From the NCBI RefSeq assembly GCF_037996645.1, contig NZ_JBBMXV010000003.1, forward strand, positions 620,001-684,000: a DNA stretch of 64,000 nt, written 5' to 3'. A model generated the notes under the pieces. That model did no database searches, had not been told where the DNA came from, and worked only from the letters and a program-made list of their open reading frames with translations. This DNA comes from Halalkalicoccus tibetensis. Lineage in GTDB: Archaea; Halobacteriota; Halobacteria; Halobacteriales; Halalkalicoccaceae. The position numbers and the translations under genes were made by a program. Below, piece by piece: positions 36,058 to 47,032 of the stretch (its first letter is position 1; each line of letters begins with the position of its first letter).

Positions 36058-36987
36058 ATGCCGTCGCTTTCGATCCCGGAAATCGAGGATCGATCCGGGA
36101 TGGAGAAACAGACCAGTGAGACGCTCAACGAGTACCTGCGGCGGGTGGGCGAACGCACCGATCTCCCGTCCGAGGACATCGAGGCGGTCATCGACCACGC
36201 GGCCCACACGCAGTTCGGCCCGGAGCCGACCACCGGTGGCGACGTCAGCACCGACGTGCCGATCGAGCGGTTCCTCCGGGCGGCCGACGAAATCGGCGAG
36301 CGAGAGCCCGAGCGATCGACCGAAAACGACGAGACCGAAAGCGACGATTCGGAGGTCCATATCGGGCTGGGCGCGCGCAACAACGCCGCCCGGAGCGCCG
36401 GTTCGACCGCCACCTCGGGCACCACCGAGACGTCCGACTCCGGGACGAGCCGCCGGTCGTTCGTCCTCCCCGTCGTGTTGGTGCTCGGGGTCGTCGTGCT
36501 CGCCGCCGGCGTGCTCTTCGTCGGCGGCGGCCAGCTCCCGGCCACCGACGCCGGCCCGGAGTCGACCGACGGCGAGCCCGAGCCCTCGGGCGACGATGAG
36601 CCCGACACGATCGACTCCGCGGCCGACGCGGAGGGCGATCTGGAGGTGACTGACATGGCTGTCGACGCCTCGCTCGAGCCCGACGAGGAGTTCGTCGAGC
36701 TCACCAACGCCGGCGACGCCACCCTCGACATGTCCGACTGGACCGTCCGCGACCGCGAGGGCGGCGCGGTCGACGAGCGCGGCATCGAACCCGTCACCTT
36801 CCCCGAGGAGTTCACCCTCGAGCCCGGCGAGAGCGTCCGGATCGTCACCGGACCCGGCGAGGACACCGCCGACACCGTCCACTGGGGCTCCGAGACGCGC
36901 AACTGGCACGAGGACGGCGACGTGATCGTCGTCCTCGACGGCGACGGCGAGGAGGTGCTCGCCAGCGAGTACGGCTCGCCGCCGTAG
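36058..36987 (+). CDS. Membrane-anchored lamin-tail-domain protein
   Basis: The ATG at 36058 follows a purine run GAGGGGGG and is preferred over the upstream ATG at 35926; a third choice is ATG 36100 (MEKQTSETLNEYLRRVGERT). The N-terminal cytosolic part (EYLRRVGERTDLPSEDIEA, IERFLRAADEIG) is helical. One membrane helix follows (VLPVVLVLGVVVLAAGVLF), then an acidic linker, then a lamin-tail domain (EFVELTNAGDATLDMSDWTV, FTLEPGESVRIVTGPG). Such outer domains are found on haloarchaeal surface nucleases and adhesion proteins. The exact role is unknown. Confidence 0.75.
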   Translation: MPSLSIPEIEDRSGMEKQTSETLNEYLRRVGERTDLPSEDIEAVIDHAAHTQFGPEPTTGGDVSTDVPIERFLRAADEIGEREPERSTENDETESDDSEVHIGLGARNNAARSAGSTATSGTTETSDSGTSRRSFVLPVVLVLGVVVLAAGVLFVGGGQLPATDAGPESTDGEPEPSGDDEPDTIDSAADAEGDLEVTDMAVDASLEPDEEFVELTNAGDATLDMSDWTVRDREGGAVDERGIEPVTFPEEFTLEPGESVRIVTGPGEDTADTVHWGSETRNWHEDGDVIVVLDGDGEEVLASEYGSPP

Positions 36988-37004
36988 ACGTTCGAACCGA
37001 CCCC

Positions 37005-37178
37005 TCACTCCTCGGTCTCGTCGCCCTCCCAGCCCTCCGAGAAGACGCACTCGTCGGGAACGCCGAACCCCGAGATGAATATCCGTTCCCGGCATCGCCG
37101 CGAGCAGAACGCCGACGGGAACCCACCACACTATCGTGATTCTTCCGAGCATCGAGCGAAGCGGGGAAGCGCCGTCAT
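37005..37178 (-). pseudogene. Small zinc-ribbon gene with an in-frame TAG
   Basis: The frame from ATG 37178 to TGA 37005 has 58 codons: MTALPRFARCSEESR, then TAG, then CGGFPSAFCSRRCRERIFIS and GFGVPDECVFSEGWEGDETEE. The part after TAG has strong coding character, with four Cys and an acidic tail. No start codon exists after the TAG. It may be a pseudogene by nonsense mutation or may begin at a non-canonical codon. Confidence 0.4.
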
Positions 37179-37190
37179 CCCTCTCCCCGG

Positions 37191-38357
37191 CTACTCCAGC
37201 GAGTCGGTCATCGTCACGCCAGCGAACTCGAAGCGGGCACCGCCCTCCGTGCCCTCGGTCACCGACGTCTCCCAGCCGTGTGCGCTCGCGATCCGCGCAA
37301 CGATCGTGAGCCCGTAGCCCGTCCCGTCCTCCCGGGTCGAGTAGCCCTGATCGAACGCGAACTTCCCGACCGATTCCGGGATCCCCGGCCCGTCGTCCTC
37401 GATGTAGAACCCCGACTGATCCGGCAGCCGCCCGACGCGGACGGCCACCGACGATCCGGCGTGTTCGACGCTGTCGTCGGCCTTCGGCCGACTGCTCGTT
37501 GAACCGTGTTCAACGCTGTCGCCGGGATTCGGTGGATCCCGGCTGCAAGTCGAGCCATGCTCGACACTGTTGCGAAAGACGTTGCTCAACAGCGCGTAGA
37601 CACGGCTGCTGTCGGCCTCGATGCTCCCGAGGCCCTCGACGATCTCCAGGCTCGCGTCCTCGGTCCCGACCTCCTCCCAGGCGTCGAGAACGTGCTGTCG
37701 AAGCGAGATGTACTCCCGTTCGCCGATGTCCGCGCCGTTTCGCGAGAGCATGAGGACGTCCTCGACGAGCTCCTCGATCCGTGCCAGCGCGTCGGCGACC
37801 TGCCGGAGCTCCTCCGAGTCGTCCTCCTCGCGCGCGATCTCGGTGTAGCCCTGGGCCGACTGGAGCGGGTTCCGGATGTCGTGGGTCAGGATGCTCGCGA
37901 ACTCGTCGAGGCGTTCGCGTTCCCGTTGGAGCTGGGTTCGGCGTTGCTTCTGCTCGCTGATGTCCCTGATGACTCCCGTGAACAGGCGCTGCCCGTCGAG
38001 TCTGTGCTCGCGGATGCTGATCAGCGTCGGGACCTCGTGGACCTCCTTGTGGAGCGCGGGGAGCTCGATCCCCTCCCACTCGATATGGCGCTCGTTCGAC
38101 GCCAGATACGACTCGAGCGCCTCGGCATGGACCGGGCGGAGACGCTCGGGGATGATCTTCATCTTCGAGCTCCCGATCAGCTCCTCGGGGCTGTAGCCGA
38201 GGATCTCCTCGATCGCCGGGTTCGCGTGGACGATCCGGCTCTCGGCGTCGATCGTGAGCAGCCCCTCGGAGGCGTTGCGCACCAGCGTCCGATAGAAGGT
38301 CCCCGTGTCCGGTGCCTCCATGGGGGCCCCCTCCGGACTGCCGACGTCGTCGCCCAT
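37191..38357 (-). CDS. PAS-domain sensor histidine kinase with palindromic insertion in the N-box
   Basis: The 388-residue soluble kinase has a PAS domain (about 18-135; ELIGSSKMKIIPERL), the H-box LTHDIRNPLQSAQG with phospho-acceptor His159, and an HATPase domain with NVFRNSVEHGS (N-box) and DDGPGIPES (G1), ending in a GTGYGL-type G2 box. The N-box segment SVEHGST occurs, with variations, three times in a row. The PAS is closely related to the second PAS of the Bat-type protein at 56903. No response regulator gene is adjacent. The ATG at 38357 or the Met at 38321 could start it. Confidence 0.85.
   Translation of the reverse strand: MGDDVGSPEGAPMEAPDTGTFYRTLVRNASEGLLTIDAESRIVHANPAIEEILGYSPEELIGSSKMKIIPERLRPVHAEALESYLASNERHIEWEGIELPALHKEVHEVPTLISIREHRLDGQRLFTGVIRDISEQKQRRTQLQRERERLDEFASILTHDIRNPLQSAQGYTEIAREEDDSEELRQVADALARIEELVEDVLMLSRNGADIGEREYISLRQHVLDAWEEVGTEDASLEIVEGLGSIEADSSRVYALLSNVFRNSVEHGSTCSRDPPNPGDSVEHGSTSSRPKADDSVEHAGSSVAVRVGRLPDQSGFYIEDDGPGIPESVGKFAFDQGYSTREDGTGYGLTIVARIASAHGWETSVTEGTEGGARFEFAGVTMTDSLE
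37461..37571. repeat. Array of four perfect palindromes inside the kinase gene
   Basis: Three copies of a GTGTTCGACGCTGTC-like segment (37461, 37506, 37557) alternate with hairpins GTCGGCC-TTC-GGCCGAC (37476-37492) and GCCGGGAT-7-ATCCCGGC (37521-37543). Further palindromes are GTTGAAC-CGT-GTTCAAC (37498-37514) and GTCGAGC-CAT-GCTCGAC (37549-37565). Unit spacings are 45 and 51 bases, both multiples of three, so the reading frame is kept. Confidence 0.75.
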
Positions 38358-38645
38358 AGTGTCTCGGTCTCTAGTCGGTCGTGTATTAACTCTGGCCGCT
38401 ATCGATGCTGGGATCGAACGACCCCTCGCTCCCTCTCCCTTAGATGACCGGTTCGCCTCCCACGTCCCACCCTGTTTTCTGGATCGTCAGTGAGCGGTAT
38501 ATGACTCCGTAGAGCGGGCCGGCTTGGCGCGGCGTCGTGTGAACGGCGTCGCCGCTTCCCCCGTAATTTGCCGGTAGACGACCTATAAGACACCGCCGCA
38601 CCTGCCCGCCAACGGCTTTTCAGTCGTGCTCCCATAGCGTAGTTG

Positions 38646-40136
38646 ATGGTACAGTCCCTCTCTATCGACGCCGACTGGAACAGTCTCTACATCGACGGCG
38701 AGTGGACCTCCTCGGAGAGCGACGAGGAGATCGTCGTCGAGGACCCCTCGACGCGCGAGGAGGTCGCGCGCGTGCCCTCCGGCACCGAGGCGGACGTCGA
38801 CGCCGCCTACGAGGCCGCCGCGGAGGCACAGGCGGAATGGCAGAAGGCGCCGCCCGCGGAGCGCGAGCGGGTCGCACAGAACTTCGCGCGGACGCTCCAG
38901 GAGTACGACGAGGAGATCAAGGAGCTGCTGACCCATGAGGCGGGCGGGTCGCGGATCATGGGCGAGACGTCGGTTCAGATCGCCACCGATCAGGCGAACC
39001 AGGCCGCGACGCTCCCCCGCCAGATGGGCGGCGAGCAGCTCGAATCCAACATTCCCGGCAAGGAGAACCTCGTCCGCCGGGAGCCCCAGGGCGTCGTCAC
39101 CGTCATCTCGCCGTGGAACTTCCCGCTGAACCTCTCGGGGCGGGCGATCGCGCCCGCGATCGCCTCCGGGAACGCGGTCGTCGTCAAGCCCGCCTCGAAC
39201 ACGCCGATCACCGGCGGGCTCCTCATGGCGAAGCTCTACGAGGAGGCGGGCCTCCCCGACGGGCTGATCAACGTCGTCACCGGCAGCGGATCGGACATCG
39301 GCGACCCGATCGTCGAACACCCCGAGAGCGACGTCGTCGCCTTCACCGGCTCGACGCCCGTCGGCCGCGGGGTCGCCGCGAAGGCCGGCGAGAACGTCTC
39401 CGAGGCGGCCATGGAGCTCGGCGGCAACAACGCCCACATCGTCACCGCCGACGCCGATGTCGAGGCGGCGGTCGACTCTGCGGTGTTCGGCTCGTTCGTC
39501 CACCAGGGGCAGGTCTGCATGTCGATCAACCGCCACCTCGTCCACGAGGACGTCTACGACGACTACGTCGACCATCTCGCCGACCGCGCGGCGTCGCTCC
39601 CAGTCGGCAGCGCCCACGAGGACGACACGGTCGTCGCCCCGATCATCGACGAGGGCCAGCGCGACGAGATGCTCAAGTACGTCGAGGAGACGATCGACGC
39701 CGGCGCGACGCTCGAGACCGGCGGCGAAACCGTCGAGATGGACGGCGTCGACGACTCCCTGCTGGTGGCGCCGACGGTGCTCTCGGACGTGGACAACGAC
39801 ATGGCCGCCGCGTGCAACGAGCACTTCGGCCCGATCGCCCCGGTCATCCCGTTCTCTGACGTCGACGAGGCGGTCGAGCTCCACGACGACACCCAGTACG
39901 GCCTCTCGGGATCGGTCCACGCGGGCGACGTCGGTACCGGCCTGCGGATCGCAGAACGACTGGACACCGGCAACGTCCACGTCAACGACCAGCCGATCAA
40001 CGACGAGGCCCACGTCCCGTTCAGCGGCACGAAGGCCTCCGGCGTCGGCGGCTACAACGGCACCGACATCATGGAGGAGTTCACCGAGAAGAAGTGGATC
40101 TCCCTGCAGCACGAGCAGCGGGAGTACCCCTTCTGA
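38646..40136 (+). CDS. NAD(P)-dependent aldehyde dehydrogenase
   Basis: ATG 38646 follows a TTG in frame at 38643 and is preferred. The 496-residue protein has SPWNFPLNL, the general-base Glu in AMELGGNNAHIV and the catalytic Cys in HQGQVCMSINR, with FTGSTPVGRGV for the nucleotide fold. The order and length are standard for the ALDH superfamily. The ending GTKASGVGGYNG resembles benzaldehyde- or vanillin-type enzymes. It precedes a MetE-like gene and two dehydrogenases in the same direction, perhaps a catabolic set. The substrate is unknown. Confidence 0.9.
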   Translation: MVQSLSIDADWNSLYIDGEWTSSESDEEIVVEDPSTREEVARVPSGTEADVDAAYEAAAEAQAEWQKAPPAERERVAQNFARTLQEYDEEIKELLTHEAGGSRIMGETSVQIATDQANQAATLPRQMGGEQLESNIPGKENLVRREPQGVVTVISPWNFPLNLSGRAIAPAIASGNAVVVKPASNTPITGGLLMAKLYEEAGLPDGLINVVTGSGSDIGDPIVEHPESDVVAFTGSTPVGRGVAAKAGENVSEAAMELGGNNAHIVTADADVEAAVDSAVFGSFVHQGQVCMSINRHLVHEDVYDDYVDHLADRAASLPVGSAHEDDTVVAPIIDEGQRDEMLKYVEETIDAGATLETGGETVEMDGVDDSLLVAPTVLSDVDNDMAAACNEHFGPIAPVIPFSDVDEAVELHDDTQYGLSGSVHAGDVGTGLRIAERLDTGNVHVNDQPINDEAHVPFSGTKASGVGGYNGTDIMEEFTEKKWISLQHEQREYPF

Positions 40137-45796: not shown

Positions 45797-47032
45797 ATGT
45801 TGAACTCACGATCTACGATCGCGGTCTGTCTCGTCTGCTTGACGGTCCTCCTGGCCGGCTGTGCGGGGTTCGGGACGGAGGACCCGGCGGCCGAGGCCGA
45901 CGAACCCGAACCCGAGGAGGCGGACGACCTCGAGGACGCGGCCGACGCGACCGACGGCGACGACCCGGACGAAGCGAACGTCGGTAACGATGCCGACGAC
46001 GAACCGACCGACGACGCTGACGACGCCTCGCCCGAAAGCGACGACACTGACGGGAGCGAGGACGACGGTGTCTTCAAACTCGACGACGGCGAGGAGGCCG
46101 ACGAGGACGACGCCATCGATGCCGGCGACGGCGACGCCGTCGAGAACGACACCGACGAAACGGCGTCGGGTGCCGACGGGGAAACGAGCGATCAGCAGGA
46201 CGCCGCCGACGCCGATGACGCCGATGCGGCTATCGACGACGGCGGGGAGCAGGACGCGGACGGAACGGACGAGCAGGACGACACCGATGAACAGGACGTC
46301 GATGAGGAAACGAGCGCCGACGAGGAGGGCGACACGAACGAGCAGAGCGATGAAGACGGCGACGGAACCGAGGACGTCGACGAACAGGACGCTGAGGACG
46401 GCGACGGAACCGAGGACGCCGACGAACAGGACGCCGACGACGCTGACGACGGGGAGGAGGCTCACAGCGATGACGCTGACGCCGACGAGGAGCACACCCT
46501 CACCGTCACCGCCGAGGACGTCGTGACAGGCGAGCCCGCCGACGACGCCTCCTTCCTCCTCCAGCAGGACGGCGAGACGATCGGCGAGGAACAGCACGGC
46601 GAGACGGCCACCTTCGAGGGGCTCGAGGACGGTGACTACGAGCTCGCCGTCTACGAAGCCACCGCCGACTGGGGCTACGACACGACGATCACGATCGACG
46701 GCGACGACGTCGAGCACACCGCCCAGGTCGACCGGATGTACGTCTACTGGGCGACCGTCGAAGCCACCGTCGTCGACGAGTCCGGCGACCCCCTCGAGGG
46801 TGAGACCGTGACGGTCAACGGGCAGGGGATCCCGACCGACGAGGACGGCGTCGCGCTCTACGACCGCGAGTTCCACTACGCCGACGAGACCGAGGTAATC
46901 GCCGAGTACGGCGACCAGTCCGAGACGTTCGTCTTCGATCGCGAGAACGACGACGTCGAGACGGTGACCTTCGAGGCCGACACCGAAGGCGGGGACCCCG
47001 ACGAGCAACTGGCACTGACGATCGCCCCGTAG
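45797..47032 (+). CDS. Large acidic lipoprotein with two beta-sandwich-like domains
   Basis: The ATG at 45797 is preferred over the upstream TTG. The 411-residue product has a lipobox ending in LLAGC and then about 220 residues almost entirely of Asp, Glu and small residues with EQDxxDGDGTED-type repeats. A C-terminal part of two carboxypeptidase-regulatory-like domains follows: DASFLLQQDGETIGEEQ with GLEDGDYELAVY, then VVDESGDPLEGETVTVNGQG. It is the bigger relative of the 1028-1651 lipoprotein. The acidic spacer would hold the domains away from the membrane at high salt. Confidence 0.82.
   Translation: MLNSRSTIAVCLVCLTVLLAGCAGFGTEDPAAEADEPEPEEADDLEDAADATDGDDPDEANVGNDADDEPTDDADDASPESDDTDGSEDDGVFKLDDGEEADEDDAIDAGDGDAVENDTDETASGADGETSDQQDAADADDADAAIDDGGEQDADGTDEQDDTDEQDVDEETSADEEGDTNEQSDEDGDGTEDVDEQDAEDGDGTEDADEQDADDADDGEEAHSDDADADEEHTLTVTAEDVVTGEPADDASFLLQQDGETIGEEQHGETATFEGLEDGDYELAVYEATADWGYDTTITIDGDDVEHTAQVDRMYVYWATVEATVVDESGDPLEGETVTVNGQGIPTDEDGVALYDREFHYADETEVIAEYGDQSETFVFDRENDDVETVTFEADTEGGDPDEQLALTIAP

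Follow-up and report, generated by a model that had tools for sequence, protein, structure and literature searches.

How does a run of DNA palindromes come to lie, in frame, inside the gene for a sensor histidine kinase? The question is raised by one locus in the 64-kb stretch of Halalkalicoccus tibetensis DNA analysed here (the window; its genome is G000), where an earlier note had described an N-box motif, SVEHGST, repeated three times as alternating perfect palindromes. The best full explanation, which we consider highly probable, is that the array represents one locally amplified lineage within a family of short palindromic DNA elements, each with two hairpins, that occurs genome-wide in Halobacteria.

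The features of the array are collected in Table 1. The coding-strand stretch of the kinase gene that contains it is RNSVEHGSTCSRDPPNPGDSVEHGSTSSRPKADDSVEHAGSS, and the minus-strand reading over the array itself is NVFRNSVEHGSTCSRDPPNPGDSVEHGSTSSRPKADDSVEHAGSSVAV. The copies of the motif start at 37565, 37514 and 37469, which gives the spacing of 51 and then 45 nt that the earlier note had reported. Two of these copies belong to full SVEHGST units and the third is a degraded, non-palindromic SVEHAGS. With this small correction the initial description is confirmed, and four perfect stems (7, 8, 8 and 7 bp) alternate along the array. Folded as single-stranded DNA, the region reaches −38.6 kcal/mol (z = −4.8), and none of 200 shuffled sequences folded as well; these fold statistics, together with the covariation of the stems across species, place the hairpins beyond chance. 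The window contains no other strong copy of the element. Elsewhere in the window, at 46351–46442, there is a 42-nt tandem repeat (2.2 copies, 92% matches), with other acidic coding repeats nearby.

Table 1. Kinase gene and palindromic array, in positions of the 64-kb window
Feature	Positions	Strand	Basis
Sensor histidine kinase host gene (PAS-HisKA-HATPase_c, 388 aa)	37191–38357	−	ORF; Pfam PF00512, PF02518 and PAS families
Unit 1, 51 nt: VEHGSTCSRDPPNPGDS	37515–37565	−	Sequence; 51-nt length in 15/163 units
Hairpin 1 of unit 1: GTCGAGC-ATG-GCTCGAC, perfect 7-bp stem, codes VEHGS(T)	37549–37565	−	Sequence, fold; G000 pattern match at same place
Hairpin 2 of unit 1: GCCGGGAT-CCACCGA-ATCCCGGC, 8-bp stem, 7-nt loop	37521–37543	−	Fold
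Unit 2, 45 nt (type A): VEHGSTSSRPKADDS	37470–37514	−	Covariance model R1 match at 37464–37514, 73.9 bits, E 2.6e-22 (rough)
Hairpin 1 of unit 2: CGTTGAAC-ACG-GTTCAACG, perfect 8-bp stem	37497–37515	−	Fold
Hairpin 2 of unit 2: GTCGGCC-GAA-GGCCGAC, perfect 7-bp stem, then conserved GAC	37476–37492	−	Fold; pattern match at 37473–37490
Degraded third copy, VEHA (GTCGAACACGCC), without right arm	37458–37469	−	Sequence

The position of the array in the protein was taken from an AlphaFold model (17 sequences; mean pLDDT of 72.9, with the HATPase blocks mostly above 80). Residues 269–301 fall in a loop (pLDDT below 50) that connects the N-box helix (250–267) with a strand (305–310). The array is thus predicted to follow directly after the N-box helix, in a disordered loop away from the G1/G2 ATP lid, and not to lie inside the N-box or in a loop of the ATP site, as had been proposed. 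The left arm of the first hairpin is the N-box VEHG itself; a kinase that lacks the element (L004) reads NSVEHGG at this point. The array may be nearly neutral for the kinase. A role in tuning kinase activity, also suggested earlier, found no support, and the finding of this element in numerous unrelated enzymes speaks against any role specific to kinases.

The earlier note would have counted its reading as refuted had the unit occurred in this gene only, but the unit is not confined to one gene. A covariance model of the 45-nt unit recovers the two-hairpin form from many genes, where it lies in frame. Its general layout is GAC AGC, a 7-bp hairpin, GGGCA, a second 7-bp hairpin and GAC, over about 48 nt; copies also lie between genes. 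A search for hairpin 2 alone, which required neither the reading frame nor hairpin 1, gave matches in 40 of 44 genomes (up to 23 per genome), and a complete hairpin 1 (7/7) stood at one fixed distance from 32 of the 61 perfect hairpin-2 matches. The consensus-like copy GACAGCGAGGGACGAAGTCCCTCGGGCAGCCGGACGCAGTCCGGCGAC and the kinase unit GACAGCGTGGAACACGGTTCCACGGGCAGCCGGACGGAGTCCGGCGAC are, from their sequences, clearly the same element. Among the host genes verified by Pfam are those for PurC, acetyl-CoA synthetase, carboxyltransferase, molybdopterin oxidoreductase, PIN ATPase, NurA, V-ATPase E, LeuC, LeuRS, UvdE, ThiI, nitrite/sulfite reductase and, antisense to the element, LysRS; ten long ORFs over copies for which no gene was identified have no Pfam domain. 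The multiple-of-three register (14) was found in all 10 coding copies and in 11 of the 23 others (p ~0.004, hypergeometric), a comparison that covers pattern-found loci only, as the covariance model imposes the 14-nt register and gives rough E-values. The search patterns themselves account in part for the D-x-V-E flank (GAC NNN GTC GA) that most unit insertions have. Across the phylum, strong matches were found in Halobacteria only, with few candidates scored per genome. Matches to the type-B pattern in the bacteria Microvirga (L238) and Bryobacterales (L240) looked like chance. Three places in one genome (L309–L311, G006:C1) carry near-identical intergenic clusters in which several hairpins follow one another; these may form a larger composite element.

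Outside the kinases, genes with the insert can be set beside relatives without it. In a Rieske 2Fe-2S gene of Natrinema (genus g5), most species read PCEDGVEAWINRCTH or a close variant, an empty site, whereas G005 reads PCEDGVEHGSTNSRPGADDGVEAWINRCTH; in other Natrinema species this codon carries inserts that are decayed, double or mixed. A precorrin (cobalamin) methyltransferase gene is empty in five congeners (for example, KVQDAVEREDPETPVRVVPG) and filled in four, one of which has a second kind of cassette; both gene names come from recognisable motifs. In a third gene family, G025 carries two units and G091 a single decayed one; nine others have none. Such sequence comparisons show insertion of the element in frame at sites that are empty in relatives. 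In G215 one unit lies in the tail of a gene that, by its look, we take to encode an AI-2E-type permease.

How the element moves is a separate matter. It might be a non-autonomous remnant of an IS200/IS605-type transposon, comparable to the PATEs of Haloquadratum and moved as single-stranded DNA by a transposase that recognises hairpins. Such an origin would account for the mobility step only and is compatible with our main explanation. Two hairpins, short length, the lack of long terminal inverted repeats and an occurrence both between and within genes would suit it; a PATE of 52 bp consisting of termini only is on record in the available part of PMC3119063; and one copy (L366, G042:C1:2372693) lies antisense in a tnpB-type gene, the frame of which is shifted. 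However, no transposase with these hairpins at its ends was present in the loci examined, and in-frame tandem arrays at a single kinase site are not among the features of PATEs described in that part of PMC3119063. We regard this origin as rather unlikely. No viral contig matched the general hairpin-2 pattern, and at that sensitivity there was no sign of carriage by viruses.

Arrays like that of the window recur across the class. A pattern of two successive units, for which pairing was not required, matched 54 of 145 Halobacteria genomes (one genome per species) and 24 of 58 genera; the reversed pattern matched none of the 145. Nearly all of the approximately 100 arrays examined are at this same kinase site, with few exceptions such as L105 (the underlying list has 96 N-box stretches, of which a few lack a unit), and the hairpin 1 pattern matched in 39 of 59 genomes. 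Among 163 units, lengths of 45 nt (99), 48 nt (48), 51 nt (15) and 60 nt (1) occur. Automatic annotation flagged 57 of 61 ORFs with VEHGST-type units as kinases and one more is a kinase by eye, a concentration that is unexpected for an element moving freely without site preference or selection. A C-terminal VEHGST in L157 was judged to be natural. Between orthologous kinases, the number of units differs despite similar flanks: 2 versus 3 in L010/L011 (flanks 95.7% identical) and in L090/L094 (96.2%), 3 versus 1 in L096/L101 (93.6%), 4 versus 5 in L055/L058 (93.6%) and 1 versus 3 in L069/L075 (88.9%). Copy number has therefore changed between orthologues. One kinase array (L006, G069:C1:2752745) is followed by a frameshift, and the gene is apparently a pseudogene. 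A cassette type reading SEPSVADAPED (L203–L205, L213–L215, L194, L198, L211 and L221–L224) occurs in kinase arrays, in the Rieske gene and in the precorrin methyltransferase gene.

The arms of the hairpins are kept complementary where the protein does not ask for it. In VEHGST, the protein places little or no constraint on the third codon bases of Val, Ser, Glu and Gly. Nevertheless, the facing third bases of Val and Ser form Watson–Crick pairs in 156 of 179 copies (74.9 expected) and those of Glu and Gly in 157 of 179 (89.9 expected), values that none of 20,000 permutations reached in either case; with one copy per locus, the counts are 82 and 83 of 92. Codon positions that do not face each other have no excess of pairing. 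In type A units, 94.2% of cells are paired (covariation score of 0.34, 130 double changes) and in type B units 95.4% (0.41, 129 double changes), compared with scores of at most 0.09 in a slid control. Among the 179 copies, His is encoded by CAT more often with Glu GAG (31/66) than with GAA (22/113), so that the loop base follows the stem.

These patterns bear on two readings in which the palindromes serve the gene. In the first, the hairpins act as RNA, through pausing, stability or regulation of kinase synthesis, as a selected mRNA structure. The strong covariation of the stems and the stability of the window array when folded as RNA (z = −3.6) are what such a structure would show, but no Rfam family matched positions 36900–38700 of the window, and the same element occurs in unrelated genes, in antisense and between genes. 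In the kinase units, moreover, mismatches outnumber G-U pairs (summed totals of 57 non-pairs versus 15 G-U in alignment A1 and about 33 versus 7 in A2), at the Glu–Gly position A-C mismatches alone exceed G-U pairs (17 versus 2), and in the general element G-U fills 1 of 392 cells. Because a selected RNA stem should tolerate G-U, its rarity favours a DNA-level cause of the pairing, with the caveats that the members of alignment A4 were selected for stem pairing and that codon preference also acts at paired positions. An mRNA structure is accordingly improbable.

In the second reading, the array is a tandem repeat at the level of the protein: extra VEHGST copies or the polar linker would alter kinase activity, and the palindromes would be a by-product of codon choice. 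Units are always in frame, are hydrophilic and lie in a loop, and VEHG is a natural part of the N-box. Against this, third positions of separate residues covary while the protein is unchanged, the longest stem in the spacer averages 6.5 bp compared with 4.0 bp under synonymous redraw, and orthologues range from one to three or more units. Amino acids themselves follow the stems: in alignment A1, Ser AGT goes with Asp GAC, Ser AGC with Gly GGC, Asn AAC with Gly GGT and Asn AAT with Asp GAT, and the two arms read R-T..S, R-P..A or R-A..P. The protein sequence does not account for the stem pairing, and we consider a protein-level repeat to be a poor candidate.

The genome that contains the window offers a closer view of spread. 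A second kinase on contig C1 (L002) has flanks that are only 61.5 and 68.3% identical to those of the window gene, whereas its 45-nt unit is 95.6% identical at the nucleotide level, and these diverged paralogues thus share near-identical units. Two hairpins of L002 are those of the window but for inverted loops (ATG to CAT, giving VEPCST, and ACC to GGT) and one or two substitutions; such flips fit extrusion and template switching. A count of inverted hairpin 1 mostly caught the opposite strand of normal copies, leaving only the in-frame VEPCST of L002. Exchange between paralogues is argued from individual cases such as this genome, because a general test of similarity in genus g6 gave a modest difference (88.3% identity within genomes and 85.9% between them). 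Beyond the kinases, an in-frame copy in the Kae1-Bud32 gene (L306, G000:C1:52268–52324; insert AVEAPSTGNRDSKSSGD) corresponds to an exact 17-aa insert relative to structure 2vwb, and another lies in frame in the prephenate dehydratase gene (L308, G000:C3:36187–36222), where the structure alignment is too unclean to place the insert exactly. An intergenic copy (L304, G000:C2:465102–465158) appears to adjoin a tRNA gene and is followed by further hairpins. An ancient kinase repeat that was never mobile, moved by homologous recombination and gene conversion between kinases only, would suit the majority of VEHGST units being in kinases and the near-identical units of the G000 paralogues and is possible for the kinase arrays taken alone, but as a full account it is very improbable, being contradicted by in-frame copies in the Rieske gene, the methyltransferase gene and many unrelated genes, as well as by intergenic copies.

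The mobile two-hairpin element would work as follows. The length of its unit is divisible by three and none of the six reading frames of its consensus is closed, so it could enter genes and leave them intact; the insertions that survive would mainly be those that are in frame, hydrophilic and compatible with a loop. One copy would have entered a kinase family just after the N-box VEHG, such that the first hairpin now reads VEHGST. Units in the kinases would then have multiplied through tandem duplication and loss and been exchanged between paralogous kinases. Their arms would be kept complementary at the DNA level through codon changes: in the extruded hairpin, one arm most likely templates the other, through either template-switch correction or inversion of the hairpin, and perfect copies would be copied recurrently as well. 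This templating step is one that we infer, and selection on pairing is the alternative to it. A bolder version, which we put forward tentatively and rate at somewhat less than even, is that DNA hairpin geometry and not protein selection writes part of the protein: one arm templates the other time and again, codons and even amino acids to either side of the loop coevolve, and a selfish in-frame element uses a surface loop of the kinase as a nursery while colonising universal genes.

In its behaviour, the element works like the palindromic elements of Rickettsia (RPEs), a likeness that the earlier note had drawn in principle and that the copies described here bear out. It is a hairpin-forming palindromic repeat found between genes and in frame in unrelated genes that are uninterrupted in relatives. 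RPEs and the palindromic elements of Wolbachia are likewise short palindromic DNA, intergenic and in frame in unrelated genes, which adds a peptide without destroying the protein, and their occupancy differs between related genomes. RPEs are bacterial and around 150 bp in length (PMC10969869), whereas the haloarchaeal unit is archaeal, has 45–51 nt with two separate hairpins, is arranged in tandem at a single site within one gene family and covaries synonymously from arm to arm. CGTC- and GTAG-tagged REPs are also small stem-loops within and between genes (PMC3733652); those with the CGTC tag have stems of 8–9 bp and loops of 4–5 nt and occur mostly as head–head dimers (PMC3733652). Our element is instead a fixed two-hairpin unit, in which stem 2 has 7 bp and a 3-nt loop and stem 1 mostly 7–8 bp and a 3-nt loop, which does not fit the CGTC-tagged sizes. 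It has a GTC/CGTC-like motif at the foot of hairpin 2, on the other strand, and a TGC tail on the other side; GACG occurs in about 39 of 52 copies that had been selected for GAC, so this pattern-imposed GAC is not an independent match to the CGTC tag. The PATEs and SMRs of Haloquadratum walsbyi share a haloarchaeal host, the absence of a transposase, near-terminal palindromes (in PATEs) and versions of 52 bp; the available part of PMC3119063 describes them as IS605-linked mobile elements rather than as coding sequence inserted in frame or as arrays in kinases, which sets them apart. In the open-access literature, PATEs and SMRs are the nearest published haloarchaeal elements (PMC3119063, in the part available), and RPEs and intragenic REPs are the nearest in kind (PMC10969869 and PMC3733652). 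No archaeal precedent for such an element was found in that literature. The initial interpretation is thus partly supported and was largely right; the genome-wide extent of the element goes further than had been proposed.

In-frame palindromic elements were already known from Rickettsia and a few other bacteria. Here they are found throughout an archaeal class, with empty sites, changes in copy number and synonymous covariation. In practical terms, repeats in haloarchaeal kinases that could be mistaken for functional motifs are explained. Three questions can now be put to the test: how elements of this kind persist within genes, whether hairpins that template themselves rewrite coding sequence, and where small insertions in universal enzymes such as LeuRS, LysRS, Kae1 and LeuC come from.
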